20,808 nt of DNA from a virus, in IMG/VR virus record IMGVR_UViG_3300031343_000316, positions 1-20,808 of that record; one strand, written 5' to 3'. The notes under the pieces were generated by a model, which ran no database searches, was not told the DNA's origin, and worked only from the letters and a program-made list of their open reading frames with translations. A program made the translations under genes and the position numbers. Below are positions 2,739 to 19,744 of the stretch, piece after piece (within the stretch, counting starts at the first letter, position 1; each line of letters begins with the position of its first letter).

Positions 2739-2987
2739 TTATTGACACGCCCGCACTTGATCCCGTAACACTGCATAATCCGCGAGCCAGTCAGAGATGA
2801 CCGAGCCGTCCTGCAACGTCGACACTTCATCGGCCACGCGCGCCTGCTCAGCCTGACTGTACTCCACAATTGGCGGACATGGACCTGACGCAGTCTCAAA
2901 ACCCACCCCCGCGCAGCCGGTCAACAAGATTATCACGACTGCGAGGGCGGCGGGCGGCCGCGTCCAGCATCTGGCGGTGGATGGCAT
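2739..2987 (-). CDS. outer-membrane spanin (Rz1-like lipoprotein)
   Basis: Probable o-spanin: a small lipoprotein that pairs with an inner-membrane Rz-type protein to fuse the membranes in the last step of host lysis. The 82-aa product begins MPSTARCWTR, has a hydrophobic stretch AALAVVIILL and a lipobox LLTGC whose Cys (about residue 25) would be lipidated. The rest is a short, charged soluble domain ending in RDQVRACQ. I chose the ATG at 2987, with AGGGG upstream, over the in-frame TTG at 3008. It overlaps the 3' part of the Rz-like gene by 92 bp in another frame, the arrangement typical of Rz/Rz1. The spanin role rests on lipobox, size and position after the endolysin, not on sequence similarity I can test. 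Confidence 0.75.
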   Translation of the reverse strand: MPSTARCWTRPPAALAVVIILLTGCAGVGFETASGPCPPIVEYSQAEQARVADEVSTLQDGSVISDWLADYAVLRDQVRACQ

Positions 2988-3153
2988 CGTTACGCCCCTG
3001 TGCGTCAAGCCGCTCGACGGCGCGGCCAGCGCGCTCGGCCGTGCGGCGAAGGTTGAAAATGAACAGCGTGATAGTGAGTGCTGCGAGGGCGAATTCCGCC
3101 ACTCGCCGTCCCAAAGGCCGGGTGATGGCTCCGGCCAGAAACGTACCCCACAT
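2896..3153 (-). CDS. inner-membrane spanin (Rz-like)
   Basis: Probable i-spanin of 85 aa. Starting at the ATG at 3153 it reads MWGTFLAGAITRPLGRRV, then one membrane segment (about residues 18-32, AEFALAALTITLFIF), then a charged helical tail rich in Arg/Glu/Asp (RRTAERAGRAVERLDAQ...) that could form a coiled coil. It ends RDNLVDRLRGGGF. The start shares its A with the endolysin stop (TGATG), and an in-frame TTG at 3174 is rejected. The downstream lipoprotein gene starts inside this gene in another frame. N-terminal anchor plus coiled coil, next to a lipoprotein and an endolysin, is the classic Rz layout. It is shorter than lambda Rz (153 aa) but compatible with small spanins. Confidence 0.72.
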   Translation of the reverse strand: MWGTFLAGAITRPLGRRVAEFALAALTITLFIFNLRRTAERAGRAVERLDAQGRNDAIHRQMLDAAARRPRSRDNLVDRLRGGGF

Positions 3154-3827
3154 CAGCGCAGCCCTCGCTTCCAATCATCCAGCCGCGCCCAGACCGCCAC
3201 GGCGATCCCGCCCAGCGCCAGCGCAATGAATACCCACCTGAGCGTATCAAGATGCGGTACCAGCGGCAGAATTGCGCCCTGAGCTTCCGCCAACACGTCC
3301 TGCGCAACCTCGACACCGGCGGCACCGAGGGTGGCAACCCCGGCTGCGCCAGTCCCACGCAATGTCCGGCTGTCGGCCAGCACCTCGCGCGCAGGGGGCG
3401 TCTCGGCTGCAAACGGCACTGCCTGGACTGGGAACCGTTCCCCCCAACTGCGTGCAGGCCCAAGATCTATATGGATGAACCTAGAGCGCGGATAAAACCC
3501 GAACCCGAGAAACCCCACCTCCCGCGCCGCCGCCTCAAACGTCACTGGGTCATGATTGCTCATCGCAATATCAAACGCCACACCGGCCATGTGCTTGGAT
3601 CGCGTCGCGCCGCCAACAGCGCGGTTATGCTCAGGGCTGCGATAGGCGGAACGGACGATCAGCGGCTTGCCCAGCCGATCGCGCAGCGCCTGCAGCTTGT
3701 CGAGCGCCGGCTCGTTGATCAGCAGCTTGCCGGTGCCGCGACACGCGATCTCCGCTGGCGAGAAGTTCCCCCACCGCCAGACACTGTCGGGTACGTCACG
3801 GAAGTGGGCATAGGTATTGTTGGTCAT
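3153..3827 (-). CDS. M15-family peptidase endolysin with C-terminal membrane segment
   Basis: Zinc peptidase predicted to cut peptidoglycan cross-links during lysis. 224 aa from the ATG at 3827, chosen because GGAG (3838-3835) lies 7 nt upstream; an in-frame TTG at 3848 lies in the terminator. The M15 domain covers about residues 1-135: SAYRSPEHN, then SKHMAGVAFDIAM (SxHxxGxAxD; His79 and Asp86) and FIHIDLG (His119) supply the expected zinc ligands. Residues about 140-195 are an Ala/Gly/Val-rich linker. A single membrane helix follows (about 197-213, WVFIALALGGIAVAVW) with a basic tail RLDDWKRGLR. The membrane anchor is unusual for a simple soluble endolysin and could link it to the holin step. 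The stop is fused to the Rz-like start (TGATG). Confidence 0.88.
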   Translation of the reverse strand: MTNNTYAHFRDVPDSVWRWGNFSPAEIACRGTGKLLINEPALDKLQALRDRLGKPLIVRSAYRSPEHNRAVGGATRSKHMAGVAFDIAMSNHDPVTFEAAAREVGFLGFGFYPRSRFIHIDLGPARSWGERFPVQAVPFAAETPPAREVLADSRTLRGTGAAGVATLGAAGVEVAQDVLAEAQGAILPLVPHLDTLRWVFIALALGGIAVAVWARLDDWKRGLR

Positions 3828-3840
3828 GATGGATCTCCAG

Positions 3841-3868
3841 AAATGCAAAACCCGCCTCTGAGGCGGGT
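3841..3868 (-). terminator. rho-independent terminator before the lysis genes
   Basis: On the minus strand ACCCGCCT-CAG-AGGCGGGT (3868-3850) makes a perfect 8-bp GC-rich stem with a 3-nt loop, immediately followed by TTTTGCATTT. The plus strand has no T-run after the hairpin, so it acts on the minus strand. It lies 35 bp after the stop of the membrane/coiled-coil gene and only a few bases before the GGAG of the endolysin gene. Confidence 0.82.
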
Positions 3869-3902
3869 CGGGTGATAGGTTCAGGGGTGGTTTGTCTGTC
3901 GG
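3869..3902 (-). other. short spacer without recognisable promoter
   Basis: This spacer lies between the stop of the membrane/coiled-coil gene and the terminator. On the minus strand it reads from CCGACAGACAAACC to CTATCACCCG. I see no TTGACA/TATAAT-like pair at correct spacing, so a dedicated lysis promoter here is not supported by the sequence. Confidence 0.4.
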
Positions 3903-4214
3903 TCAGTCCGTACGCCCGCGCTGAAAGGCTTCGAACATCACGTCACGCATGGCGCGGATATCGGTCTCGATGCGGTCCAGCCGCTGGGCATCAGCCTGAC
4001 GGTCCTCGGCCCGCTGTGCTTCGATGCGGGTACGATCGGCGATGAGTTCGCGGTCCAGCCGCTGCAAGAGGGCTTCATTGGTAAAAGCGCGGCGCGTGAT
4101 GGCGGCAATCAGGGCAAGAAAGCCTCCGATCAGTGCGGTGATGGCTGCCGTCAGACCATGATCGCGGAAAGCCTGCCCGACCTCTGCCAAGCGGCCGGGA
4201 GTGTCATCGCTCAT
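3903..4214 (-). CDS. small membrane protein with C-terminal coiled coil (holin candidate)
   Basis: 103 aa. After a short acidic N-terminus there is one hydrophobic segment (about residues 22-40, TAAITALIGGFLALIAAI) followed by RR. A long, highly charged helix then covers about 45-100 (LLQRLDRELIADRTRIEAQR..., QRLDRIETDIRAMRDVMF) with heptad-like spacing, so a coiled coil is likely. Its ATG overlaps the upstream DUF2793 gene by 4 bp (ATGA) and it is the last gene before the terminator and lysis genes. Small size, a membrane segment and proximity to the endolysin make a holin plausible, but a single helix plus coiled coil could equally be another tail- or membrane-associated phage protein. I do not recognise a named family. 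Confidence 0.6.
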   Translation of the reverse strand: MSDDTPGRLAEVGQAFRDHGLTAAITALIGGFLALIAAITRRAFTNEALLQRLDRELIADRTRIEAQRAEDRQADAQRLDRIETDIRAMRDVMFEAFQRGRTD

Positions 4215-4954
4215 GACGGTCCTCCCAATGTCAGATAATGAATGGCGATGCGCACAGAACCGCCGGTGAAACTGCCACCGCGGGCCGTGAGCACAATGGG
4301 CGTGTCAGCATAAAACGCCTGCGGGCCGATCACGCCGATATTGGTGCTTCCTGCGACCACACCGAGCGCGCCACCAAATTTGCTGGCCTCACCTGCAATC
4401 CCGCAATCATAGGAGGTCGCACCGGTGATGGTGGTCACGGTGCGCGTCGAGACCCCGAGCACGATGGCGCGGTCCGGGATTGCGATGGCGGATGTCACCG
4501 TGGCCCCGGTGAGACCGGTGAGGCTTTGTTCCAGCACCGCTATTCCGGTGGTACTGCCTAGTGTGCCCTTGGCGACATCCACGCTGGCGGCGTGTGACAG
4601 CAGCCCCATTGCGACATCCAACGGCGTCCAGATTGCGCCAATTCTAACCACCACCGTGGCCTCATCCTGCACCCAGACCATCCAGCCTGGGCGGGCTGGC
4701 AGGCGCAGCCATGCGCCATCGGACCAGAGCGCCACATCCCCGGCCCAGCCTGCCCAGGCACCACTCGCGCCGCTGGCCACGATATAGCGCGCGCCCTCGA
4801 CCGGTGAGGCAGGCGGTGCTATGCGATTGCGGTCCAGCACCGACAGCTGGATAAGCCCGTCAAGCAGCCGCAGGGCCTCGTTATGGGTGACATGCTTTTG
4901 GGCCTGCGCTGCCAGAATATACGGCAGCGTGAGGAGCGTGGTGGTATCGGCCAT
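4211..4954 (-). CDS. DUF2793-containing phage tail-associated protein
   Basis: 247 aa. The N-terminal half matches what I know of DUF2793: LPYILAAQAQKHVTHNEALRLLDGL, then VLDRNRIAPPASPVEGARYIV, GAWAGWAGDVALWSDGAWL and PRPGWMVWVQDE-like turns (about residues 9-105). This domain is common just after the megatron gene in Rhodobacteraceae prophages. The C-terminal part (about 140-247) is Gly/Thr/Val-rich beta sequence ending in GGSFTGGSVRIAIHYLTLGG, like tail-spike C-terminal domains. It starts 10 bp after the megatron stop with AAAGGA as ribosome binding site, and overlaps the next gene by 4 bp. A role in host contact at the tail tip is an inference from position and beta-rich C-terminus. Confidence 0.82.
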   Translation of the reverse strand: MADTTTLLTLPYILAAQAQKHVTHNEALRLLDGLIQLSVLDRNRIAPPASPVEGARYIVASGASGAWAGWAGDVALWSDGAWLRLPARPGWMVWVQDEATVVVRIGAIWTPLDVAMGLLSHAASVDVAKGTLGSTTGIAVLEQSLTGLTGATVTSAIAIPDRAIVLGVSTRTVTTITGATSYDCGIAGEASKFGGALGVVAGSTNIGVIGPQAFYADTPIVLTARGGSFTGGSVRIAIHYLTLGGPS

Positions 4955-4964
4955 TTGGTGTCCT

Positions 4965-7900
4965 TTAGAAGTTCAGTGTCACGGTCTGGCTGGTTCCGCG
5001 CCCAACCAGCGCGGAGAGCTGTGCAATGCGGATATCGAGGGTATCGCCGGGACCCAGCAAGGATCCCCAATCCGCCATCTGCTGGGACGCCGTGTAGACC
5101 GCGTATGTTGTCGTGGTGCTCAAGGTCCGCTTCACGTCGGCCCCGTCGAGGATATCGACCTCATAAGCTTCACTGGCCTCGGACATCGGCACCTCGACCG
5201 CTTCCCAGCTGTCGCTGACCAGCGCGCGGTCGCGGCGGGTCCAGCGGAGGGTCAGATCGCCCGGGATGCGGCCGCGCCGCCAGGGCTGCTCGACATTGGC
5301 AACCGAGAATGGCCGCAGCCCGACACCTTGAGGCGTGAAGGTGCGTGCGATGTAGCTCTCGTCGGTGAATGGCAGCGATGCCGGGCCAATGCGCCAGTTC
5401 CACGGAATGCCAAGGTCGGATTGCGCGACAGGCATGCGCGACAGCGCTGCATCCAGCACAACAATGCGCGAGCCAGCTGCCACATTTGCCGCCACCGCGT
5501 GCTCAGTTCCGCGCTGGCCGCGCAGCAGGCGCGTGATGCGGTACCGTCCAGGTGCGATCAGTTCGGCCATGCTGCCCTGTACTATCTCCCAGACGCCGGG
5601 CGCGCTCTCGACCGCGAAAGCGTTGGCACCGCGAAACAGCGCAAGGTCCGTCATGCTCGCGAGCGTGCCGCTGCGCAGGTCGACCAACAGCGCGTTTGCC
5701 ATGTCAAAGCGCGACGTCGGCCCCGCTGCAAGGTCAGCGACAAGTGTGCCAAGGCGCGCCTGCGTACCAAAGGTCTGGAACAGCTCGAAGCCCTCATCCG
5801 CATAACTGCGCCAGACCGCGACATTCCCGGGCCACGGCCGGGCAAAACCCGCGATTAGCGGCTGGTGGTCAGTCTCCGCCTCAGTGAGTTGCGGCACATC
5901 GAGAAACACCACCTCCGTGCCGCCGAAGACGATGGGCCGCGCCAGCGAGGCTGCGCGCGGCTGGCCGGGTGGCAGATCATAAACGCTGCGATCCTGGAAC
6001 AGTGTTTCCATCGCCCGCGCGTCGCTGTCTGCAACGGAGACAACGCGCAGGTCGATCAGGCGCTGGTCGTGCTCAAGGCGCAAGACATCGCCGGGATCGA
6101 TGGCCAGGTGTGATGCAGGCAGACGGAAGGCAGCGCTTTCGCGGCCCACCCATGCCTCCATCAGCGCGCGGCGGCAGCGGCGCTCTGCTTCCTCGGGCGG
6201 CACCGCCAAGGGAAAGGACTCCGCGCTAACGCGGGACGCTTCAACCGTGATCCTGCGGGCCTCGACCAGCGCTGCGTCGTAATCCTCGTCCGCGCGCGCC
6301 ATCTGCCACTTCAGCGCTTGTGGCAGTTCGGTTTCCTGTCCGCGGGTCAGCTCAAAGACCTCACCGTCGCCGCTTGGTGCGGCAACCATGTCATCCGGAG
6401 ACATTGTGATGACTGGCGCGCGCCCGCGCATCAGAAACTTGATCACACCCTCACTCTCAACAGCATCAAAGCCAAAGTGTCGCGCCAACGTGGTCAGTGA
6501 TGTGCGCGGCGCTTCCAGCGCGCTGATTACATAGCCCTCGACCGCACCCCAGAGGCCGCTGACGTCGATGCGGTCCGCGGGCATTCCGGCGCGCGTGCAC
6601 AGCGTGCGCACCAGCGCTTGCAGCGACACGGACCCCAGTCGCCCGGTCAGCCAATGCCCGAGACGCCAGTTCGCCCCATCGGTCCAGACGTCCTGCAGTT
6701 CGGGAAACCACGGATAGGGCCGCGCGTCCCATGTCCAGGCGGCACATTCCGGGATCCGGATCATGCGGTCGCCGTACACAGTCGAGACCGGGTTGTTGGT
6801 GGGCTTGCCCCAATAGTCGAGGGTTGCCTCAAGATACGCCCGCTGGATGGCGTCGTCGCGCCAACCGCGCGAGAAGTGCGGCGCAAAGCTCTCGGACGAC
6901 TTGGGATCGAAAAACACGTTGGGCTGGTTGGCGCCCCGGTCGATGGCGGGGCATCCGAACTCGGTGAACCAGAAGGGCTTGGATTGCGGCACCCATGCGG
7001 TGGGCACAGCACTCTCGACACCACCGGGGCGGTTGAAGTGCGGGTTGCTCCACCAGCTGGGCAGGTCCTTGTTGCGGAAAACCCATGCTTTGGCCGCCGA
7101 GCCGTCTGTGATCGGGGTCCGCACTTGCGCAGTGCGATCATCAACGCCGACGTAGAACCAGTCGAAGCCTTCGCCACCTTCGATGTTGGATTGCAGGTAG
7201 TTGCTATCGTAGATCACCGGCCAGTTCTGGGCGTCGCGATGGGCATAGCCATCGCGCCAGTCGGACAGCGGCATGTAGTTGTCGATGCCGATGAAATCGA
7301 TGTTGGCGTCGGCCCAGAGCGGATCGAGGTGGAAATACACATCGCCGCTGCCATCGTCCGGGTGGTGGCCAAAATATTCTGACCAGTCGGCTGCGTAGCT
7401 GATCTTGGTGCCCGGGCCGAGAATCGCGCGCACATCCGCCGCAAGGGCACGCAATTGCGCGACGCTGGGATAGGTTCCAGCTGCAGAGCGGACCTGTGTG
7501 AGCCCGCGCATCTCCGAGCCGATGATGAATGCGTCGACGCCTCCAGCCGCTTTGCACAGATGCGCGTAATGCAGAACCATGCGGCGCAGGCTCCACTCAC
7601 CAGCGGGGCCGGTAAAGGTGACATTCGTGCCTGACACCACGAATTGTGCAGGCGTGGCCGCGCCGAACAGCGCCGCGACCTGCGCAGCGGCCGTGGCGGT
7701 TTTGTCCGCGGTGCCTGCGTATCCTGCGGCCGGGCTACAGGTAATCCGTCCGCGCCAGGGGAAAGCAGGCTGTCCTGCCTCGCCCGCATTGTCGCTGTAA
7801 GGGTTCGGCCGCGTATTGCCTGCGGGCACATCCATCAGGATGAACGGATAAAACGTCACGCGCAGCCCGCGCGCTTTGATCTCTTGAATCGCCTGCTCGA

Positions 7901-8933
7901 CCGTGAAATCTGCTGGCGTGCCGCCATAGACCGGTCGATTGGCGCTGTCGCGACTGACCAAATACGCGCTCGCGCGCCCCACGCCATTCACAGACCACCC
8001 GGGCGTCGTGCTTTTGCTGGCCGCCTCGACGCCGGGGCGCAGTTTGCAGCTCGCCGCGCGCAGATCATCCCCGAACCAGGCCACAACCAGCGAGGTGCTT
8101 TTGACCTTGGGGGCCTGCGCCTGCAGCCGGTCCAACGCCACCACGAAATCTGCGGTGCTGGCCAGCGCGTTGGCGTTCTCGGCCGTTGTTGCCGATCCTT
8201 CACGTTTGCGCACGATCTGTGTTGCATAGCTGAATTCGCCCGAGGCCGGGATGATGGTGACTGCCTTTGTCAGCCCCTCGGCAGTGTCGGGTTCCGCAAG
8301 CGGGCGGAAAACCTCGAAGGACAGCTGCGGCAGGCGGTTGCCGAAGGTCTCCAGCGCAAGCTCCTCGAACACGATATAAGCGGTGCCGCGATAGGCGGGC
8401 GTGTTCCCTGCACCCATTTTTGCCGCGATAAACGGGTCCGCTGTTTGCGTCTCATCACCCGGATACCAGCGCCAGACCACGCCTTGCATATCCATTGGCT
8501 TGCCGTCGGCCCAGATGCGTCCAATGCCGCTGATCGCGCCTTCGCTGATCGCAACCGCGAAGCTGGCGAAATACAGATACTCGGTGGTGGTGACCTTGCC
8601 GCCTCCACCGCCTTTGCCACCGCCTTGGGTGGTGGTGCGCACCTCCTCCCGAAAATCCGTGGCCCAGATCACATTGCCGCCCATGCGCATGCGCCCGTAA
8701 ACTCGGGGCAGGATCGCGCCTTCGGTCGAGGAGGTGATCCGCAGGTTGTCCAGTCGCGCGCCTTCGATCCGCTGACCAGGTGTCAGCGACGAGATGATCC
8801 AACTATCGACGACCGAGCCTATGGTTGAGCCAACAAAGCCACCGATGGCCGCACCGGTCAGCCCGAGGACCGTGCCGGAAATGAAGGTGCCGCCGAGGGC
8901 GGTGCCCACAGCGCCGAGAACAAGTGTGGCCAT
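4965..8933 (-). CDS. tail tip megatron protein with TIM-barrel domain (RcGTA orfg15-like)
   Basis: 1,322 aa, the largest gene here, matching the host-specificity/baseplate megatron family of RcGTA and related siphoviruses. The N-terminus (1-45) is hydrophobic and Gly/Ala-rich (MATLVLGAVGTALGGTFISG). A glycine loop TQGGGKGGGGGK sits at about 102-113. A glycoside-hydrolase-like TIM barrel spans about 340-765, with KISYAADWSEYFGHHP (510-525), IDFIGIDNYMPLSDW (545-559) and PFWFTEFGCPAID (653-665) as typical strands. The phage-tail_3-type and C-terminal fibre-related domains follow (about 770-1322). It starts 3 bp after the NlpC/P60 stop. In RcGTA the homologue forms the bulk of the baseplate and contacts the cell envelope. 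Whether the barrel is an active glycosidase cannot be told from sequence alone. Confidence 0.93.
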   Translation of the reverse strand: MATLVLGAVGTALGGTFISGTVLGLTGAAIGGFVGSTIGSVVDSWIISSLTPGQRIEGARLDNLRITSSTEGAILPRVYGRMRMGGNVIWATDFREEVRTTTQGGGKGGGGGKVTTTEYLYFASFAVAISEGAISGIGRIWADGKPMDMQGVVWRWYPGDETQTADPFIAAKMGAGNTPAYRGTAYIVFEELALETFGNRLPQLSFEVFRPLAEPDTAEGLTKAVTIIPASGEFSYATQIVRKREGSATTAENANALASTADFVVALDRLQAQAPKVKSTSLVVAWFGDDLRAASCKLRPGVEAASKSTTPGWSVNGVGRASAYLVSRDSANRPVYGGTPADFTVEQAIQEIKARGLRVTFYPFILMDVPAGNTRPNPYSDNAGEAGQPAFPWRGRITCSPAAGYAGTADKTATAAAQVAALFGAATPAQFVVSGTNVTFTGPAGEWSLRRMVLHYAHLCKAAGGVDAFIIGSEMRGLTQVRSAAGTYPSVAQLRALAADVRAILGPGTKISYAADWSEYFGHHPDDGSGDVYFHLDPLWADANIDFIGIDNYMPLSDWRDGYAHRDAQNWPVIYDSNYLQSNIEGGEGFDWFYVGVDDRTAQVRTPITDGSAAKAWVFRNKDLPSWWSNPHFNRPGGVESAVPTAWVPQSKPFWFTEFGCPAIDRGANQPNVFFDPKSSESFAPHFSRGWRDDAIQRAYLEATLDYWGKPTNNPVSTVYGDRMIRIPECAAWTWDARPYPWFPELQDVWTDGANWRLGHWLTGRLGSVSLQALVRTLCTRAGMPADRIDVSGLWGAVEGYVISALEAPRTSLTTLARHFGFDAVESEGVIKFLMRGRAPVITMSPDDMVAAPSGDGEVFELTRGQETELPQALKWQMARADEDYDAALVEARRITVEASRVSAESFPLAVPPEEAERRCRRALMEAWVGRESAAFRLPASHLAIDPGDVLRLEHDQRLIDLRVVSVADSDARAMETLFQDRSVYDLPPGQPRAASLARPIVFGGTEVVFLDVPQLTEAETDHQPLIAGFARPWPGNVAVWRSYADEGFELFQTFGTQARLGTLVADLAAGPTSRFDMANALLVDLRSGTLASMTDLALFRGANAFAVESAPGVWEIVQGSMAELIAPGRYRITRLLRGQRGTEHAVAANVAAGSRIVVLDAALSRMPVAQSDLGIPWNWRIGPASLPFTDESYIARTFTPQGVGLRPFSVANVEQPWRRGRIPGDLTLRWTRRDRALVSDSWEAVEVPMSEASEAYEVDILDGADVKRTLSTTTTYAVYTASQQMADWGSLLGPGDTLDIRIAQLSALVGRGTSQTVTLNF

Positions 8934-8936
8934 GGG

Positions 8937-9425
8937 TCAGGATCTCTTTTTGCGGGCGCGCTTTGGGCGCGGGAAACGAAAGGCAAAGGCAATGCGCCGC
9001 CGCCAGGCCTCGGTCAGGGGCTCCTCGATCACGCCGAGACGCTCATAGGCATGCACAAAGTGGTCAGGCGCGGTGAGAATGCCGACATGCTTGGCGATCG
9101 CACCGCGGTAGATGCGAAACAGGATCATGTCGCCGGGCGCGGCGCTGTCGACCGGCACCGCAATCATGGCGCGTGCTGCCCCTTCGAAGAGCACCTCGCG
9201 GTGCCCGGTCTCACCCCAATCGCGGCTGTAGGGAGGAATTGGCACCGGTTCCGGTCCCACAACGTCGCGCCAGACGCCGCGCGCGAGGCCGAGGCAGTCA
9301 CAGCCCACACTGCGCAGACTGGCCTGATCGTGATAGGGCGTGCCAAGCCATGCGCGGGCAGCGGCTACCACTACGTCCGGATCAGCGGGGCGGGGCGCGT
9401 GACGGCGCGTTGAGGTGGTGGTCAT
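8937..9425 (-). CDS. NlpC/P60-family tail peptidase (RcGTA orfg14-like)
   Basis: 162 aa, a cysteine peptidase of the NlpC/P60 fold found at the tail tip, thought to open peptidoglycan during DNA entry. The catalytic Cys is in GCDCLGLARG (Cys44), the catalytic His in AKHVGIL (His113), and the third polar residue is probably His125 (VHAYERL). AARAWLGTPY and APGDMILFRI are other hallmarks of the phage subfamily. It is translationally coupled to the DUF2163 gene (ATGA, 9422-9425) and precedes the megatron gene by 3 bp, exactly the RcGTA order orfg13-14-15. The C-terminus is strongly basic (RPKRARKKRS). Confidence 0.93.
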   Translation of the reverse strand: MTTTSTRRHAPRPADPDVVVAAARAWLGTPYHDQASLRSVGCDCLGLARGVWRDVVGPEPVPIPPYSRDWGETGHREVLFEGAARAMIAVPVDSAAPGDMILFRIYRGAIAKHVGILTAPDHFVHAYERLGVIEEPLTEAWRRRIAFAFRFPRPKRARKKRS

Positions 9426-10306
9426 AGAACATTGCCCTCGTGGCCACCGTCCTTGGTGGCGTAGCGGATGATGGCGTCCTGACCGGGGATGTGCGGAAAG
9501 CCGCGGAAGTTCACGTTGTTGGCAAACTTGTCCCGACAGGTCTCGACGCGCTTGTCGCAGCCTGCGCGGATCACGAAGGTATCGCTGGGTGTGATTGCCC
9601 GCACCGGTGCTTCGAGCAGCGTTATTGTGACGATCCCGCCCGACACGGCGTGGATCAGGACCTCTGCCAACCGCCCGTCATTCGCACCGGATGTCCAAGC
9701 CACCGTGCCGCCGGAAAACCAGCCATCCGCAAAGCTGAAAATGCCAGAGGCCAGAAAGGTGCGATCGCGCAGCAGGTCGGTCACCAGACCTGTGCCCTTG
9801 AAGGCCGGGTTCTCCAGATCAATCCCGCAGCGCGCATCGCCAAGGGCTGCGTCACAGGTTCCCTGAAAACTGCGCCCCACCGTCTGGCCCAGTACATGGG
9901 CCATGCTGCGCACCTCAGCCACAAAGGCTAACCGCCCACGCCTGATCTGCCCGATGGCCCCACGGCGCATGAGCACGCGCTGGCCCGTGTCGGCCCAATT
10001 GACCCGCCAGACCTCGACGGCCGCGTTGTCCCAGCGGCCATCGGATATGTCGGTCTCGCTAATGCGGTCCGAGGTCAGTACGCCCTCAGCGTCCTGCGCA
10101 TCGACCGACAGATCAGATCCCGACCGGACCTCAGAGGCCACAAGACCGCTCTCTGGCTCAAATGTGGTCTGGTCAAAGGTCAGGTGGCGATCATGATCGG
10201 TGAAACCCAGCACAACGCCGTCGGCCCGCGTGATGCGCCAGCACCACGCCAGCGTGGTCGTGCCGCTGTCGAGATGGGCTTGCAGGTCGGGTGAAAGGGT
10301 CTTCAT
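9422..10306 (-). CDS. DUF2163 tail hub protein (RcGTA orfg13-like)
   Basis: 294 aa. The N-terminal DUF2163 region shows LQAHLDSGTTTLAWCWRI and VVLGFTDHDRHLTF; the C-terminal BR0599-type region shows GTCDAALGDARCGIDL, VIRAGCDKRVETCRDKF and NNVNFRGFPHIPGQD. Four cysteines (151, 160, 250, 257) are spaced like those that bind an iron-sulfur cluster in lambda gpL-type hub proteins; that metal binding is inferred from the family. It forms the tail hub between distal tail protein and megatron. The start overlaps the stop of the heme-oxygenase-like gene (ATGA, 10303-10306) and its stop overlaps the NlpC/P60 start, so the accessory gene is wired into the core tail operon. Confidence 0.92.
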   Translation of the reverse strand: MKTLSPDLQAHLDSGTTTLAWCWRITRADGVVLGFTDHDRHLTFDQTTFEPESGLVASEVRSGSDLSVDAQDAEGVLTSDRISETDISDGRWDNAAVEVWRVNWADTGQRVLMRRGAIGQIRRGRLAFVAEVRSMAHVLGQTVGRSFQGTCDAALGDARCGIDLENPAFKGTGLVTDLLRDRTFLASGIFSFADGWFSGGTVAWTSGANDGRLAEVLIHAVSGGIVTITLLEAPVRAITPSDTFVIRAGCDKRVETCRDKFANNVNFRGFPHIPGQDAIIRYATKDGGHEGNVL

Positions 10307-10848
10307 CGCGCAGCCTCCGCCGCAATGCGCGGCGCCGCGAAATCATCCCGCGCGATGATCTCATCCATGACCGCCAGCAGACAGGCGAATGTGGCCCGGG
10401 CCTGAGGGGCAAGATCGACCCGGCCGCGGGTGTGCTGCACCCATGCCTGCACGGCCTCGGGATCACGGTAGACAATGTGGCCGCAAGGCAGCCCCCGCTT
10501 GATCAGCTTCGGGGCCAGCACCCGCCCGCCGCTCCGGTGCGCGCCATGCAAGACATAAGCCGCACCCGTGGTGTCCATGTCCGCATCAGAGCCGCAAAGC
10601 TGAAGCGCAAACCGCAGGGCAGCACGGCTCGGTGGTACCGCTGGCAGCACCGAGAGATCCGCTGCCAGCAATGCATCGCGGTGCATTTTTGCAGGCAGCG
10701 CCGGATCGACAATTTGGTGCAGTGTGCGAAACGCCGACAGCCAGGCGGCCCATTCCGCGCGGGTGATATTGCCCGCAGCCATGCGTTGCCCCAGTGGGTG
10801 TTGCTCGCAGGCGTGGTGCTGGTCGCGGGTCGCATCGAACAATGTCAT
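10303..10848 (-). CDS. heme-oxygenase-like protein in tail operon
   Basis: 181 aa from the ATG at 10848, which overlaps the stop of the DUF4376-type gene (ATGA). The open frame extends upstream to 11025, but that extension is low-complexity Arg/Gly sequence antisense in style and overlaps a better gene. The product resembles bacterial biliverdin-producing heme oxygenases: LFDATRDQHHACEQHPL has the H-x3-E of the proximal heme-ligand helix (His11/Glu15), followed by a helix NITRAEWAAWLSAFRTLHQIV. The distal-helix region GAAYVLHGAHRSGGRVLAPK (95-114) carries the Gly-rich kink expected over heme. Length is close to the small bacterial heme oxygenases. No other phage gene family comes to mind. The fold call is moderate; catalytic activity and why a tail operon needs it are unknown. 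Confidence 0.6.
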   Translation of the reverse strand: MTLFDATRDQHHACEQHPLGQRMAAGNITRAEWAAWLSAFRTLHQIVDPALPAKMHRDALLAADLSVLPAVPPSRAALRFALQLCGSDADMDTTGAAYVLHGAHRSGGRVLAPKLIKRGLPCGHIVYRDPEAVQAWVQHTRGRVDLAPQARATFACLLAVMDEIIARDDFAAPRIAAEAAR

Positions 10849-11420
10849 TCTGTCATTTCCGCAAGATATGCCGCCTGAAACAGCCCGGCGACATCGGCCT
10901 TTGTGGGATCGTCCATGGCGTCCAGCTGGGCGGCCACGACGCGCTCGGCCCGAAAGCAGGCTTTGACATGCGCGCCGACGGCCTGGGCCACGGCCGTGAC
11001 CTGTGCGGTGGTCAATTCCGCCCATCCGCTGTCGAGCTTGTAGGTGACGGGTTCAGTGATGAGACTCAGCTGCAGGGAATTGATCACGGCGGTGATCTGC
11101 GCCTGGCTTTCGCGGGTGGTCTGGATGCGCTGCCCACCCGGCAAATCGAGGCCTGCCGTCTCGTATCGCCAACGATGATCCGCCAGCTTTGCGAACGGAT
11201 CGCGTAGGCGCAGGGTTTCCAGCCATTCGGCGAGGGCTTTTGGATAATCCCGTTTCAGCGCGTCCAGACGCTGGCGCTGGACCAGCGCACTGTTGTGCGT
11301 CTCGAGGTGGTCCAACCCTGTCGAGATGCGCTCGCCTGGAGCGAGCATACCGCTCTGCAGGTCGTCCGTGCTGTGGGCAATCCAAAATGTGCGCGATTGT
11401 GCTGTCAGGCTGTGTGTCAT
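10845..11420 (-). CDS. DUF4376-type phage protein, probable tail fibre accessory
   Basis: 191 aa. The C-terminal half fits the DUF4376 pattern seen in phage tail-fibre loci: QRIQTTRESQAQITAVINSL (about 97-116), then WAELTTAQVTAVAQAVGAHV and KACFRAERVVAAQLDAM. The middle (about 45-90) is helical and charged (RQRLDALKRDYPKALAEWLE). It lies between the big repeat adhesin and the heme-oxygenase-like gene with 4-bp overlaps on both sides. Proteins of this type usually neighbour tail-fibre genes and may act as assembly factors. That role is an inference from position, since no catalytic motif is visible. Confidence 0.65.
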   Translation of the reverse strand: MTHSLTAQSRTFWIAHSTDDLQSGMLAPGERISTGLDHLETHNSALVQRQRLDALKRDYPKALAEWLETLRLRDPFAKLADHRWRYETAGLDLPGGQRIQTTRESQAQITAVINSLQLSLITEPVTYKLDSGWAELTTAQVTAVAQAVGAHVKACFRAERVVAAQLDAMDDPTKADVAGLFQAAYLAEMTE

Positions 11421-14311
11421 GTCGGGCTATCTCCTGTAATTGTCCAGCCCGCGCCCGCGTTGAGCACGGTCGCGCCAGACAGAACGCCTGTCCATGCGGC
11501 GACCTCCCACGCGTGGGTTCCGTCGCCGGTGGACTGTTCTGCGCTCGTGTCATCGAACAGGGTCCATGTCGGCCCCGACTTCAGGAAGAACCAGCCATTG
11601 CCGTTGACGTAGGATCCCGTCGCCGCGTTGAATGCATAACTTCCGTTTGCATCTGGATCAGACGCACCAACAACCGAAAGGGCCCGCGCAGCAACGAGGT
11701 ATGCGCGCCCATCGGCAGCGTTGGTGAAGCGCGAGGCGGGATAGTATGCGGTGGCATTGAAGGAACGACCCTCGAACGTGGTACTGACGATGAAGGGGCC
11801 GCTGTTCTGGGCAACACGGTTCGGCCATCCCGTGAGAAGGCGGGAGTAATTCTCTTCGGAGAACTGTCGGCCAGCCCCATCTGATTGATAATCGCGCATG
11901 AAGCCATCAAGCTGGACGCTCGGATTGAGGTTCCATCCTGAAATGTCTTCATCAAACGAATGGTTGCTTGTCCTGGCATCAAACATGCCGCGCATATCGG
12001 TAACGTTGGACACATCCCAATTGCCGATCGGCTGGTTGAAATCGCTGATTATGCCCTCGTTCTGACCGCGCCCGAACATCGCAAACATGTTGGTCACGGC
12101 AGACACATTCCAAGTGTTGATGCCCGGAGAGCCGCCGTTGTTAAACGGTTGGACCTGACCGCTGCCACGGCCGAGGCTGCCAAACATGTGCCGCATGATT
12201 ATGGCGCTGGAAACGTCCCAGTCCGACAGGTCCTGGTCGAAGTAGTTGGTGCGGGTATTTGTAAGACCCGTTGCGAACATTGCCTCAAAGGTCGTGACGT
12301 TGGAGACGTCCCAGTTGCCGATCGGCTGATTGAACGGGCAAGCGTTGAACATGAAACTCATGTCGAAGACATTGGCTAGTGTGCTTCCCTCGTCCTCCCA
12401 GCCTGCCAGCGGTTGGTTGTAGAGGCTGAACGAGAACATCTCGCTCATGTCGGTGACAGCGGAGACATCCCAGGCATTGAGGCTGCGGTTAAACCCGTGC
12501 ACCCCCGCCACGCCGCGGAACATACCGGCCATCGTGGTGACATTGGCAGTGTTCCAGCTGGAGATGTCCTGATTAAAACTGCGCGCTATAGCGAACATGC
12601 GGGTCATATTGGCCGCGGCCGAAGTGTTCCACTGGTTCAGAGGTTGGTTGAAGGCATGGGTGTTCTGGCTGATACCCGGATTACTCAGATGGCCCATGAA
12701 GCCCTCGAAATTCTGGACCACGCGCACATCCCAGGCGTTGATCGGCTGGTTAAAGTCCGCGCCAATGCCACCGACATTGGCATTGGCCGTGCAGCCGAAC
12801 ATCAGGCGCATGTTGGTGATGCTGCTCATGTCCCATGTCGCGATCGGCTGGTTGAAGCGCACGCGGCCGTCGCGCCCGCCGTAGTAATCGCCGATGGTCT
12901 GAACAAACATCTCCTCCATCGAGGTGAGGCTCTCCCAATTGCCCAAGGAGAACGGGCTGTTCATCTGGGAATTGGCAAAAGCCTGAAACACATCCTCCAC
13001 CCGGCCCACATCCCAGTTCGCGCAATTGGGGCCTGTGCCGTCGGAACGGAAGAATATCCGCCGGATCGTGGTGATGTTGCGCGTGTCCATGTCGCGCAGA
13101 TCGGCCGCGCAGGCGCTCTCGTAGAACAGTTCTTCAAAACTGGTGACAGTCTCTGGGATGTTTGGCGTGATGTAATCCAGCGCGATGGTGGTTCCGCGGA
13201 ACGCACCACGCAGGCTGGTCAGGCCCATGGCAAAGCCGATGTTCTCGACGCGCACCAGTCCGGCCTGATCTATCGGCTGGCTCGTGCCATACCAGTCCAT
13301 GCGTCCTGTCAGTGTTACAGTGACACGCGGGCCCACGCTCTCGGCATAGGCATGCGGCTTGATCCCCGGTGTGGTGAACCGCTCGGTGCTGCCATCGCCC
13401 CAATCGATGGTCACGTCGAGCGGGTTGTTCACGGTGCCGCCGCCCAGCGGGATGTGGATTGTGCGCGCGGTGGCCAGCGTCAGATCATAGGTCAGAATCA
13501 GCGACGCTGCGCCCAGAAAGAACACCCTTGGGCTCGACCAGTTTGAATAAATCACCGGTGCGGCGGCATTGAGCCGCCCGCCATAGCGGCTGCGCCAGAG
13601 ATAATCTTGTGCGGGCTCCAGCGGCGGGATCGGTACGGTGGTGATCGCTCCGCCGGTCTGGGTCACGGTGATCGGCGGCGCATCGACACCCGGCGTCGCA
13701 TCGGGCGCGTAAAACTCGGTCTGGGTCTCGGCATAGCCATAGCCAAAGATCGCAGCGCTTTCAAAATCGGTCACACGCACGGTGCCGGTGATGGCATTCT
13801 CGCGGGTGATCGGGCTGGGACGCGAAATCAGCTCCGGAAACGTCTGGGCATAGGGCACGGAGAAGTTCGACTGCGCACCGCCCGTTCCGGTGTAGGCCGC
13901 GCGCCAGAGCACGCGATCGCCGGGGCCAAAGCCGTCCTCGGGAAACTCGATCTGATAGGCATTGCCGAAGCCCGGCACGATGCGCGTGATCGCGCCGTCA
14001 AAATCCGCCCCATTGGTGGAAATCTCGAAGATGATCCCGGTCTGCTCGAGGCCAGCAGGTGAGCGAAACGTGGTCAGGCGCAGCTGGGTGCGCTCATCCA
14101 CGCTGAACGGCACCAGTGCGGACGGGCGCAGGATCTCGTTATCCTCGATGGGCACGATCCATTCGAGGCCGTTCGAGTAGTAGAACTGGCCGTCCTCGCC
14201 CACCACTGCCGCCCCGAAATACTGCGCGGCGTCGAGCGGGATCGGGACGGGATAGATCAGGGATTGGCCGACAAAGCGGCCCCGGCCAGTGCCGTAGCTG
14301 AGCGCGCTCAT
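11417..14311 (-). CDS. BspA-like DUF285 repeat tail protein, candidate receptor-binding adhesin
   Basis: 964 aa. The N-terminal 270 residues are beta-rich and look like a phage structural base with Ig/Fn3-like strands (WRAAYTGTGGAQSNF, DYLWRSRYGGRLNAAAPVIY). Residues about 271-340 contain a PKD-like domain (DVTIDWGDGSTERFTTPG). About 391-805 hold some 13 units of the DUF285/BspA leucine-rich-type repeat, for example FNQPIGNWDVSNVTDMRGMF, FNQDISSWNTANVTTMAGMF and FNRSLNAWDVSAVTDMSEMF. The C-terminus (about 840-964) is a beta-rich tail. It sits in the accessory block between distal tail and hub genes, with ATGA overlaps on both sides. DUF285 proteins elsewhere are surface adhesins, so host-receptor or surface binding is the likely role; it could instead be a side fibre or capsid decoration. 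Confidence 0.85.
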   Translation of the reverse strand: MSALSYGTGRGRFVGQSLIYPVPIPLDAAQYFGAAVVGEDGQFYYSNGLEWIVPIEDNEILRPSALVPFSVDERTQLRLTTFRSPAGLEQTGIIFEISTNGADFDGAITRIVPGFGNAYQIEFPEDGFGPGDRVLWRAAYTGTGGAQSNFSVPYAQTFPELISRPSPITRENAITGTVRVTDFESAAIFGYGYAETQTEFYAPDATPGVDAPPITVTQTGGAITTVPIPPLEPAQDYLWRSRYGGRLNAAAPVIYSNWSSPRVFFLGAASLILTYDLTLATARTIHIPLGGGTVNNPLDVTIDWGDGSTERFTTPGIKPHAYAESVGPRVTVTLTGRMDWYGTSQPIDQAGLVRVENIGFAMGLTSLRGAFRGTTIALDYITPNIPETVTSFEELFYESACAADLRDMDTRNITTIRRIFFRSDGTGPNCANWDVGRVEDVFQAFANSQMNSPFSLGNWESLTSMEEMFVQTIGDYYGGRDGRVRFNQPIATWDMSSITNMRLMFGCTANANVGGIGADFNQPINAWDVRVVQNFEGFMGHLSNPGISQNTHAFNQPLNQWNTSAAANMTRMFAIARSFNQDISSWNTANVTTMAGMFRGVAGVHGFNRSLNAWDVSAVTDMSEMFSFSLYNQPLAGWEDEGSTLANVFDMSFMFNACPFNQPIGNWDVSNVTTFEAMFATGLTNTRTNYFDQDLSDWDVSSAIIMRHMFGSLGRGSGQVQPFNNGGSPGINTWNVSAVTNMFAMFGRGQNEGIISDFNQPIGNWDVSNVTDMRGMFDARTSNHSFDEDISGWNLNPSVQLDGFMRDYQSDGAGRQFSEENYSRLLTGWPNRVAQNSGPFIVSTTFEGRSFNATAYYPASRFTNAADGRAYLVAARALSVVGASDPDANGSYAFNAATGSYVNGNGWFFLKSGPTWTLFDDTSAEQSTGDGTHAWEVAAWTGVLSGATVLNAGAGWTITGDSPT
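11897..13141 (-). repeat. DUF285 coding repeat array (about 13 units)
   Basis: Degenerate tandem units of roughly 23-35 codons with core [F]NQP[IL]xxWDVSxVTxMxxMF. Some units keep high DNA identity: 12001-12040 and 12295-12334 agree at about 35 of 40 bases (core ttgccgatcggctg). Spacer length between cores varies, so units carry loops of different size. Such arrays can lose, gain or shuffle units by recombination. Confidence 0.85.
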
Positions 14312-14721
14312 GTGATCACCGTGAATTCTTCGCGTTGGTTGAGGATGAAAGAAAAGTGCGCGACGGCCGCTTCGCCAGCCTCGACCTTCATTTGCAGCCG
14401 CTCACCCGATTTAAGCACCTGGCGGTCAAGCCCAATCGAGAGCACATCGCCCGAGGGGGCAAAGGCGCGGTCGAGCAGCAGCCACGGCGTGTTGTTCAGC
14501 GCCAGCACCCGGATCGAGACGCGCACAGCGGCCTCGGCCGCAGGCGTGATCAGCACGCCGGTCATGATGGCGGCGGCGGCAATGGCGCGCGCTGGATCTG
14601 GCCCAGAGGCTGGGATCAGGTAATCGGGCACGTCATAGACCGTGGCCCAGTCGGTAGTCAGCGTCTGGCGGACGACCTCGAAGAGGTTCAGCGGTGGACG
14701 CGGTGTAGTGATAGTGGCCAT
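14308..14721 (-). CDS. small beta-sandwich phage structural protein
   Basis: 137 aa, family not firmly recognised. It begins MATITTPRPPLNLFEVVRQ, continues TTDWATVYDVPDYLIP, then alternating hydrophobic strands VRVSIRVLALNN and WLLLDRAFAPSG, and ends VLKSGERLQMKVEAGEA and VAHFSFILNQREEFTVIT. The pattern of a start-up coupling segment, an inter-strand charged turn and a GDxLxI...L.xGExLxxK ending resembles small beta-sandwich structural proteins that accompany tail-fibre genes in marine phages. It starts 3 bp after the beta-helix gene and overlaps the repeat adhesin by 4 bp, so it probably co-assembles with one of them. Function is inferred from context only. Confidence 0.6.
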   Translation of the reverse strand: MATITTPRPPLNLFEVVRQTLTTDWATVYDVPDYLIPASGPDPARAIAAAAIMTGVLITPAAEAAVRVSIRVLALNNTPWLLLDRAFAPSGDVLSIGLDRQVLKSGERLQMKVEAGEAAVAHFSFILNQREEFTVIT

Positions 14722-16706: not shown

Positions 16707-17336
16707 TTAGCTGAGGCGGAGTTCCACAAGCGGGATGGATGTGATCGAGCCGAGGCGCTCGATATCGAGGGTGACGTCCATCAGATCGCTGTCGAAGCGG
16801 ACCGGCACGTCGAACTGATAGCCAGCTGTGATAGAGACGTCGGAGTCCGGAGCCGCATCAAACGTGATGATCCCGGTGTCATTATCGATGGACCAGCCAT
16901 TGAACTGCTCTGCTCCGCTAAGCGCGACACGCACTGTGCCCGCAACCGGCTTCTCGATGCGGCGCTGGTAGATGTGGGGCGCGGTGCCATAGGCTTTGGT
17001 CAGCGCGAACGCTGTGGTCTCGCCATCCCCGGTGCCTATCAGCTGATCCATCTCAGAAACGCCCTTTGAGGGCGCGCAGGATTTGTAATCCGCCCAATCC
17101 TTGAAGCGGAAGCCATAGAGCCGCCCGAGGCGGGCCTCAAAGAAGGCGACCACCGCGTGCAGGTCATCGACGCGGCGGATGCCGTAGGAGACATCGTAGC
17201 GACGCCGCGAGGCCGACCAGCTGGCGTTGCGCTCCTCACGGCCCGAAGCCAGCTCAACAATCTGCGTGCGGCGTTGTGGCCCGCCACGCGCGCCGCGGCT
17301 GATATTGTCGGGGAACTGCACCTCGTGAAACGCCAT
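16707..17336 (-). CDS. DUF2460 distal tail protein (RcGTA orfg12-like)
   Basis: 209 aa. Family hallmarks: MAFHEVQFPDNISRGARGGP, RRTQIVELASGREERNASW, the YDVSYGIRRVDDLHAVVAFFE segment, GRLYGFRFKDWADYKSC and TITRPVAGTVRV-type turns here as RRIEKPVAGTVRVAL. The C-terminus VPVRFDSDLMDVTLDIER and SITSIPLVELR completes the pattern. In RcGTA this protein joins the tail tube to the hub. The start shares a base with the tape measure stop (TAATG at 17338-17334). In RcGTA the next gene would be the DUF2163 hub; here an accessory block of 6.4 kb intervenes. Confidence 0.92.
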   Translation of the reverse strand: MAFHEVQFPDNISRGARGGPQRRTQIVELASGREERNASWSASRRRYDVSYGIRRVDDLHAVVAFFEARLGRLYGFRFKDWADYKSCAPSKGVSEMDQLIGTGDGETTAFALTKAYGTAPHIYQRRIEKPVAGTVRVALSGAEQFNGWSIDNDTGIITFDAAPDSDVSITAGYQFDVPVRFDSDLMDVTLDIERLGSITSIPLVELRLS

Positions 17337-19744
17337 TACATGCCCCTCCGGCCCATGGAGACCGCGCGGGCGATATCGGCTGCGACCTGCGTTCTGCTCT
17401 GCCGGAAGCTTTCGGCATCACGGGTCTGGATGTTGATGGTGACGCCGCCGCCACTGTTGCCGCCTCCACCAGCGCCACCGTGGCTGCGGGCCTCCCGCCG
17501 CGAGAGCACGCGCTCGCCACGCTGCAGGATCGCCGGGACCTCGTCGGATTTGAGCCCGGCCCAGCCACCTTGGTGCATTCTGGGCGCGTTGGCGAAAGCT
17601 ATGGCAGGCACCATGCGCGAGGGCGCAGGACCGCCCACGATACCGCCCTGATGGAACACACCGGCAAACATGCCACCGAGGTTGCCCAGCGCGCCGGAAA
17701 GCGCATTGGCAATGGGCCCGAGGATGAACTTGCGTGCGCCGAGCTTGGCGAGGTCCGCGATCATCGAGGTGACCAGGCCTTTGAAATCCAGCTTGCCGGT
17801 CTTCACAAAGTTCCCGATCGCGTCTTCCGCACTTTGAAACGCGCTCACGAGCACGTTGCCGATGTCTGCGCCCACATCGCGGGCTTTGTCCGCGTATTCG
17901 CTGACCGCGTTCACAACCGCCTGCCAGCCAGTGGCTGCCGCCTCGGCACCCTTGGCCGCATCAGTACCTGCCTGACGCGCTGCCCCACCCGCGCGGCCTG
18001 CCTGATCCTCGGTCTCCTCCAGCGCATTGTTGAACCGGTCCGCTGAATTGGCGGCACTTTCGAGCGCCGCCGTGCCTTCATCGCCCGCACCAGAAATGGC
18101 ATCCTTCAGCGCCTGCCATGCGGTCATGGGGCGGGACGCTGCATCTGAGAGCATTCCAGCTGCCTCGGCATAGCCAGCCGCCCTGCCGCGCGCATCATCT
18201 GCCATGCCGCCAAAGAGTTCAGGCACCTGGAATGGATTGTCCGAGAAGGCCCTGTCGTAGGCCTCCCGCGCCCGCGCTCCAAGGTTAACGGCTTCCAGGA
18301 CCGCGGACTGCCATTCCGAGAGATCAGGGGCTGCGATGGCCCATTCGGGACGCAGACCGCCAAGGGTCAATACGCCGTTGACCGCCTCGGTAATGCCCGC
18401 AATGCCGGTCTCCATCACCTCGACCAGACCGTTGATTGCAAGTGCACCAACGCGCTCGAAAACATCCGGCAGCGCGTCCCAGATGGCCTGCACTGCAAGG
18501 AACGTGCCCTCGAATGTGTTGACGGTACTGTTTGCCCAGCCGACCACCGCCGCTGTTGCATCTTGCAGACCGTCATAAATACCGGCCTGCGCCGTGGCCC
18601 ATCCGGCTTCCACGCGTGCCCAAGCTGCATCCGCGCTGAGCGATACCCGGTCCCAGACCTCAACCGCCACGTCCTTGAGCAGATCAAGCGCGTTGCCGAA
18701 CCCGCCCGCGCCAGAAACCAGCCGCGTGAACTGATAGACCAGCTCGCCTGCGCCAACGATTAGCGCACCGATGCCGGTGCGGATCAGCGCTGCGCGCAGA
18801 AAGACCAGACCGGTCACCAGCCCACTGACCGAGAAGGTCGCGGCCACAAGCCCGGCCACCCACCGGCCCGCCATCACGCCTGCGAAGGTCACGGCGTATG
18901 TGGTCAGTCGGCCAATGTTCTCAAACAGACCCTGAATGGCACTTCCAAGAGGACCGGTTGTGCGCGCCATCGCCGCCAGCGCATCCGCTACTGCTTCAAG
19001 CGCGGGTGCTGCGGCCACCGCCAGCTGGTTTGAGACGCCGCGCCAGATCAGACCGAGGCGGGAGATCGCATCATTGGTGCGCTCGATCTGGTCCGCGTCC
19101 TGCTCAGAGACAACGATGCCAAAATCATTCACATCAGCGGTGGCCTGACGCAGCGTGGCGGTATCAATGCGGGTGAACACGATGGCCGCGCGATCGCCAA
19201 AGAACTGCGAGGCAACCGCCGCACGCTCTGCCTCCGGCACGAACTCCGCCAGCCGGTCCTGGATCAAAGCGATGCGCTGATCGAGCGGCAGGTTTTGTAG
19301 CTCGCTGACTGAGAGCCCAAGGCGGTCGAGGGCATCGACGGCTGGGCCCGCACCGGCGGCAGCCTGGCTTAACCGTCGTGTCAGCTGCACCGTGGCCTGC
19401 TCGACATTGCCCATGGAGACGCCCGAGAGGTCAGCAGCACGCTCCAGCACCTGCAAGCTTTCGACCGTCGTATCGAGCGATTGCGCCAGCTTTGCGGTTT
19501 GGTCGATCGTTTGCAGTCCGGAGCGGATCATCGCAGCACCAGCTGCCACCACAGCTGCACCTGCGGCTGCCGCTGCGATCGTGGCGCGGCGCGTGAATGC
19601 AGCAAGCCGTGCGTTGGCCACATCGACCTCGCGCGACAGCCGCCCGAGCCCGCGCGCGCCAGCGTCGCCAATGCCAATCAGCTCCGCCTTTACTTGTCGT
19701 CCGCCAACGGCTGCGAGGCGCACGAAGACGCGTTTATCGGCCAT
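17336..19744 (-). CDS. tail length tape measure protein
   Basis: 802 aa from the ATG at 19744, preceded by GGAGGG; the ATG at 19765 lacks a ribosome binding site. It overlaps the end of the GT frame by 11 bp. The N-terminal part is helical and Ala-rich (EVDVANARLAAFTRRATIAAA), with hydrophobic stretches at about 55-75 and 285-335 as in other tape measures. The C-terminal part matches the lambda-type tape measure region (NFVKTGKLDFKGLVTSMIAD, then LGARKFILGPIANALSG and GGIVGGPAPSRMVPA, SDEVPAILQRGERVLSR), followed by a Gly-rich linker and basic end. It sets tail length and is ejected with DNA. At about 0.15 nm per residue the tail would be near 120 nm, which is an inference. It is much longer than the short RcGTA tape measure. 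Confidence 0.92.
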   Translation of the reverse strand: MADKRVFVRLAAVGGRQVKAELIGIGDAGARGLGRLSREVDVANARLAAFTRRATIAAAAAGAAVVAAGAAMIRSGLQTIDQTAKLAQSLDTTVESLQVLERAADLSGVSMGNVEQATVQLTRRLSQAAAGAGPAVDALDRLGLSVSELQNLPLDQRIALIQDRLAEFVPEAERAAVASQFFGDRAAIVFTRIDTATLRQATADVNDFGIVVSEQDADQIERTNDAISRLGLIWRGVSNQLAVAAAPALEAVADALAAMARTTGPLGSAIQGLFENIGRLTTYAVTFAGVMAGRWVAGLVAATFSVSGLVTGLVFLRAALIRTGIGALIVGAGELVYQFTRLVSGAGGFGNALDLLKDVAVEVWDRVSLSADAAWARVEAGWATAQAGIYDGLQDATAAVVGWANSTVNTFEGTFLAVQAIWDALPDVFERVGALAINGLVEVMETGIAGITEAVNGVLTLGGLRPEWAIAAPDLSEWQSAVLEAVNLGARAREAYDRAFSDNPFQVPELFGGMADDARGRAAGYAEAAGMLSDAASRPMTAWQALKDAISGAGDEGTAALESAANSADRFNNALEETEDQAGRAGGAARQAGTDAAKGAEAAATGWQAVVNAVSEYADKARDVGADIGNVLVSAFQSAEDAIGNFVKTGKLDFKGLVTSMIADLAKLGARKFILGPIANALSGALGNLGGMFAGVFHQGGIVGGPAPSRMVPAIAFANAPRMHQGGWAGLKSDEVPAILQRGERVLSRREARSHGGAGGGGNSGGGVTINIQTRDAESFRQSRTQVAADIARAVSMGRRGM

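Follow-up and report, generated by a model that had tools for sequence, protein, structure and literature searches.

Tail operon and the heme-oxygenase-like gene

The window, a 20.8-kb virus fragment from the IMG/VR collection, carries on its minus strand a tail operon that includes a gene for a heme-oxygenase-like (HO-like) protein (Table 1). The genes follow in the order tape-measure-like, DUF2460, beta-helix, p137, DUF285-repeat, DUF4376, HO-like, hub, NlpC/P60, and megatron. An earlier note on this DNA had reported the 181-aa gene without its strand; the ORF is present and reads on the minus strand from 10848 to 10303, whereas the plus-strand frame of the same positions gives an unrelated translation. 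The identities that it proposed for the two neighbours, a DUF4376-type gene and a DUF2163 hub gene, agree with the profile searches. The start of the HO-like gene shares four nucleotides, ATGA (GAATGACATT), with the stop of the DUF4376 gene, and its stop shares four, also ATGA (GCGATGAAG), with the start of the hub gene. These overlaps, which had been described as 4 bp each, and the surrounding tail genes bear out the claimed translational coupling into a tail operon. Among 40 representatives of the family, the preceding ORF terminates, counted from the HO-like start, at exactly +4 or +1 in 25. Most pairs of close relatives have a dN/dS ratio of about 0.10-0.20, which marks the ORF as a real gene under purifying selection. 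Relatives occur in more than 100 IMG/VR loci (tblastn supported 103 stretches, of which 80 were retained), so the ORF is more than a chance reading frame.

Table 1. Genes of the tail operon in the window
Feature	Coordinates	Strand	Characteristics
Tape-measure-like protein	17336-19765	-	name inferred from size, position, and sequence
DUF2460 distal-tail-like protein	16707..17336	-	PF09343 2.6e-87
Beta-helix/tail-spike-like protein, 656 aa	14725..16695	-	weak PF22842; kin of cyanophage tail fibre proteins
p137, 137-aa beta-sandwich protein, module marker	14308..14721	-	
Fibre/adhesin-like protein, 964 aa, DUF285 repeats	11417..14311	-	PF03382 1.5e-73
DUF4376 protein, 191 aa	10845..11420	-	PF14301 1.2e-19; phrog_10508 tail fiber; tail-fibre chaperone family (V22 gp27, A5 gp9)
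HO-family protein, 181 aa	10303..10848	-	axial His11, Glu15; distal helix Y98-A103-H104-G107-G108; H124, R141
Baseplate hub protein, DUF2163/TIGR02218 type	9422..10306	-	TIGR02218 3.7e-89; PF09931/PF09356
NlpC/P60 tail peptidase	8937..9425	-	
GTA TIM-barrel 'megatron' tail protein	4965..8933	-	PF13547 3.5e-154

The beta-helix protein, p137, the fibre, and the DUF4376 chaperone form a module that sits between the DUF2460 gene and the hub in the window. The beta-helix protein has tblastn matches in 159 phage records, mostly cyanophages, many of them annotated as tail fiber. The structure model of p137 is confident (pLDDT 92) and has no convincing match in the PDB. DUF285 repeats (PF03382), a family first described from Mycoplasma, are unusual in a phage adhesin. 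The hub is the downstream neighbour of the HO-like gene and lies outside the mobile module; it is of the four-Cys Fe-S type (Cys151, 160, 250, and 257; pattern from PMC7296036). The tail operons of RcGTA and roseophage R4C have DUF2460, hub, NlpC/P60, and megatron genes in common with the window (PMC7296036, PMC10276861), but in the window the fibre and HO-like module separates DUF2460 from the hub. The role of DUF4376 proteins as tail-fibre chaperones is established (PMC7289586, PMC10579305), and the module thus has a chaperone of its own. Alteromonas phages V22 and A5 likewise have a fibre gene and then a DUF4376 chaperone gene, an order common to distantly related phages (PMC10579305), whereas the module of the window additionally contains p137 and the HO-like gene.

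Relationship to heme oxygenases

The kinship with heme oxygenases proposed in the earlier note is well supported, and is faint only when the single sequence is searched. The window protein alone matched PF01126 weakly (E 0.24, 11.6 bits), below the curated cut-off of 23, and single-sequence searches with it found nothing in PHROGs, NCBIfam, or the PDB (phmmer); such searches would have missed the HO-like family. By contrast, all 18 PDB matches of a profile built from 40 relatives were heme oxygenases (best 1.8e-5), and no other family was returned. PF01126 was matched individually by 25 of the 40 members (best 2.9e-6), and hhalign aligned the family profile with alphaproteobacterial HOs at 99% probability. 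The AlphaFold2 model (pLDDT 94.5) has nine helices and the all-helical heme oxygenase fold. With this model as the Foldseek query, heme oxygenases made up 50 of 50 among the PDB matches listed, at TMq 0.61-0.79 and a best E of 5.5e-5 (for example, rat HO-1, TMq 0.77, and HmuO, TMq 0.71). Membership of the HO-like protein in the heme oxygenase superfamily is well supported by these profile, hhalign, AlphaFold2, and Foldseek results. Its membership among the canonical, active HOs is uncertain.

The family shares with the PF01126 HOs (human HO-1, HmuO, and BphO) the all-helical fold, the axial His with Glu at +4, the distal Gly-Gly, and Arg at the R183 position. It differs from them in length (about 165-181 aa against about 200-215) and in having A103 at G139, mostly His104 at Asp140, and H44 or Gln at Tyr58.

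Conservation of the heme pocket

The H-x3-E helix (His11/Glu15) and the Gly-rich segment that had been noticed in the 181-aa protein can both be read in it, in the N-terminus MTLFDATRDQHHACEQHPLG and in the segment GAAYVLHGAHRSGGRVLAPK. Because the motif HHACE was used in the first scan, conservation among its hits is partly selected. We therefore judged the pocket on 26 relatives obtained outside the His motif, by other patterns or by a genome profile search. H11, E15, D48, D64, G107, G108, H124, and R141 are invariant in these 26, which upholds His11 in particular as a conserved residue. None of the three findings that the earlier note had named as refuting the kinship (a different fold, a profile match to another family, loss of His11) was thus obtained. 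A103 is present in 25 of 26, H104 in 24 (Tyr or Thr in the other two), and H44 in 16, with Gln in the remaining 10. The HMMER alignment to HO-1 pairs His11 with His25, Glu15 with Glu29, His44 with Tyr58, Asp48 with Glu62, and Tyr98 with Tyr134, and on the distal side Ala103 with Gly139, His104 with Asp140, Gly107/108 with Gly143/144, and Arg141 with Arg183. In sequence and model, the axial-His/Glu/Gly-Gly pocket is intact in the family.

The abundance of conserved His might also suggest a metal enzyme that uses no heme, in the manner of the HO-fold diiron oxidases, with H11, E15, H44, D48, H104, and H124 as ligands, since a core helix carries H44-x3-D48 and the distal helix H104. However, the profile matches and the listed fold matches are heme oxygenases only, and H44 and H104 both vary in the relatives picked without the His motif (10 of the 26 have Gln instead of H44, and two have Tyr or Thr instead of H104), which is unlikely in metal ligands. 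We rejected these two as ligands and consider a diiron enzyme very improbable.

The distal side is where the family departs from HO-1 and HmuO, whose distal Asp is absent from all 26 relatives. The catalytic Asp140 position is mostly His (24 of 26) and Ala replaces Gly139 in 25 of 26, while the equivalents of G143/G144 are invariant. BphO-type HOs, which are active enzymes, also have no distal Asp, so its absence is not decisive; the alignment to BphO requires a one-residue gap in the distal Gly segment. Asp140 and Tyr58 are part of the HO-1 catalytic network, and D140A makes HO-1 a peroxidase (PMC5623701). Changes at Gly139 of human HO-1 likewise favour peroxidase chemistry, as titles cited in PMC5542595 indicate. 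In the pseudo-HO PfHO, the His is lost and Lys-Glu stands in place of Gly-Gly (PMC11634067). Since the HO-like family, unlike the pseudo-HOs, keeps both His and Gly-Gly, its protein probably binds heme. Judged from the same residues, heme cleavage is plausible, normal oxygenase chemistry is uncertain, and true conversion of heme to biliverdin is possible but somewhat doubtful.

Distribution and phylogeny

Named host genomes that carry the gene are Aliiroseovarius sp. S1123, Roseovarius sp. TE539, and one Rhodobacteraceae MAG, and profile searches found further copies within the same bacterial family and class. A divergent HO-like copy (L111, about 8030-8986, minus strand) lies in a bacterial genome among unrelated neighbours and no tail genes; it has no clear start codon and is possibly a remnant. 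In the prophage L113, the HO-like gene is followed by one for a DUF5131 protein (PF07505; 6670-7494, minus strand). The window protein had no relatives in plasmids, the L095 protein used as viral query gave no relatives, and tblastn of four diverse members against 50,697 GenBank phages gave zero matches. Canonical queries found GenBank phage HOs in cyanophages, other marine viruses, and one Acinetobacter record.

In the maximum-likelihood tree, the HO-like family is monophyletic (99/96) and separate from the HOs of cyanophages and bacteria; its deeper placement is unsure because the branches are long. Recent capture from the host was considered and rejected, as three host genomes carrying the gene contain no PF01126 match and the phage clade is separate. 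The phage heme oxygenases known so far are accessory genes of pigment synthesis or metabolism. The cyanophage and pelagiphage HOs (Ho1, HemO with PcyX/PebS, vAlaS cassettes) resemble the HO-like family as phage-borne HO homologues. The cyanophage HOs differ from it in their tree position and their setting: in the annotated cyanophage records viewed, cyanophage HOs lie mostly beside photosynthesis, transaldolase, or ribonucleotide reductase genes, whereas the HO-like gene belongs to a late tail-fibre module. Bilin reductase (PF05996) was found in 0 of 35 records of phages with the HO-like gene, many of which are fragments, while the Synechococcus elongatus control was detected. Bilin pigment synthesis is thus unsupported in these 35 phages, incomplete as many of the records are.

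Two BFVD entries from uncultured Caudovirales, A0A6J5RJ96 and A0A6J5KN38, have a compact HO fold (175-189 aa, TM 0.79-0.80) and only 19-20% identity to the HO-like protein. Both carry the annotation heme oxygenase or haem oxygenase-like, so databases already contain related compact phage HOs under automatic annotation. In cyanophage P-SSM2, about 0.5 kb separates an HO of the cyanophage branch from a tail-fibre gene with homology to the beta-helix protein of the window; such proximity was not seen in the other annotated cyanophages viewed.

Association with the tail-fibre module

Of 46 loci with the HO-like gene, 29 have a homologue of the beta-helix protein by iterated profile search, 25 one of p137, 25 one of the DUF285 protein, which precedes the HO-like gene, and 15 one of the DUF4376 protein. 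In GTA-like operons the module lies between DUF2460 and the hub, and in other phages (e.g., L006, L011, L037, L055, L070, and the prophage L113) the module and the HO-like gene occur together with no adjacent hub. As an independent test, IMG/VR was scanned with p137 as the query, which gave 64 loci, 25 of them too short for judging. The HO-like gene was present in 39 of the 39 assessable loci, always on the same strand and 2.1-6.2 kb downstream, and no p137 locus that extends 6 kb or more downstream was without it. The 39 loci, which overlap the earlier record set, group into 24 clusters at 90% identity, 12 at 70%, and 5 at 50%, and so are not one recent clone. In the reverse direction, 22 of 32 HO-bearing records matched the p137 profile, some of them from the lineage in which the gene is non-adjacent.

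Because every assessable p137 locus carries it, the HO-like gene, as judged from sequence, tracks the host-recognition module and not the Fe-S hub. The earlier suggestion that the protein releases iron for the Fe-S hub is weakened, since the gene accompanies the fibre module into phages with no hub beside it. The fixed association with one host-recognition module had gone unnoticed and is a stronger lead than the hub-iron idea. We consider a functional tie between the HO-like protein and the fibre module fairly likely.

Two other readings have to be weighed against this association. The protein may be a free auxiliary metabolic HO that converts host heme late in infection to biliverdin, CO, and Fe2+, for iron supply (e.g., to the hub Fe-S cluster) or to disable host respiration; its position in the tail operon would then determine only the late timing. 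The conserved heme pocket, the four-Cys Fe-S pattern of the adjoining hub, the missing Asp of BphO-type HOs, and the activity of other phage HOs as enzymes (PMC11480375) are consistent with it, as is a Dps/ferritin-like gene that nine loci of one sublineage carry 1.4-3 kb downstream. It fits less well with a gene that goes with the p137 fibre module in every assessable locus, including where the hub is not adjacent, and that is found with no bilin reductase in the 35 phages, whereas cyanophage HOs lie among metabolic genes in most records viewed. The HxH iron motif is also absent from the cassette proteins (0 of 8 cassette or neighbouring proteins checked), and we discarded iron-binding HxH fibres as an explanation. 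On this evidence a free metabolic enzyme seems rather unlikely.

In the second reading, the HO fold has been taken over for tail-fibre assembly, as a structural or chaperone protein that binds no heme. It would explain the linkage to the module and the position behind the fibre and its chaperone, and non-enzymatic pseudo-HOs such as PfHO and AtHO2 are known (PMC11634067). However, PfHO and AtHO2 lose the His, and PfHO also the Gly-Gly, while His11, Glu15, and GG are invariant here, and a DUF4376 chaperone is already encoded next door. We regard a heme-free protein as quite improbable.

The Dps/ferritin-like gene lies at 8082-8525 of L063, where genes like L,D-transpeptidase and lytic transglycolase surround it; equivalents are found in L049, L057, L062, L065, L068, L073, L075, and L076.

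Proposed role of the HO-like protein

Judged from its residues and its linkage, the most likely role of the HO-like protein is that of a heme-binding protein in service of the fibre module. We lean towards a compact, phage-specific HO branch that has become fixed in a mobile tail-fibre module, binds heme through His11, and serves that module. This reading builds on the HO homology and fold, pocket conservation, translational coupling, co-inheritance with p137, and lack of a bilin pathway, which we regard as demonstrated at the level of sequences and models. The protein would be co-translated with the fibre and the DUF4376 chaperone late in infection and may bind heme b through His11 during tail production. 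The bound heme might then undergo ring cleavage or be carried on or into the tail; peroxidase-like chemistry is another option because His104 stands at the catalytic Asp140 position. The replacement of Asp140 and the Ala at G139 speak against this reading to some extent, as such changes in HO-1 favour peroxidase chemistry. So does the sublineage in which the gene lies away from tail genes near the Dps/ferritin gene, a setting that suits a free iron enzyme better.

A more specific form, in which the HO-fold protein binds heme within the adsorption apparatus or its maturation and the heme takes part in host recognition, is unlikely. For example, fibre-borne heme might dock on, or compete for, heme or hemophore receptors. 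To our knowledge, such a module would be the first phage receptor system that depends on heme. The presence of the HO-like gene in every assessable p137 locus suggests an unexpected link between heme and attachment, in which a separate phage-specific HO branch retains its heme pocket while tied to a host-recognition module. That module moves between different tail backbones, in Rhodobacteraceae phages and prophages and in other uncultured viruses. If tail assembly or adsorption makes use of heme, iron and heme chemistry would be linked to phage-host recognition, and the Ferrojan Horse hypothesis and like ideas would become testable with one gene.

Other genes of the window

Downstream of the megatron gene, the minus strand (2739-4954) encodes a 247-aa protein and then a lysis-like cluster with a 231-aa M15 peptidase endolysin-like protein. 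Three plus-strand genes (37-2695) that flank the tail and lysis genes read like the dTDP-rhamnose synthesis enzymes RmlB, RmlD, and RmlA, and could serve phage surface modification or belong to a host flank.
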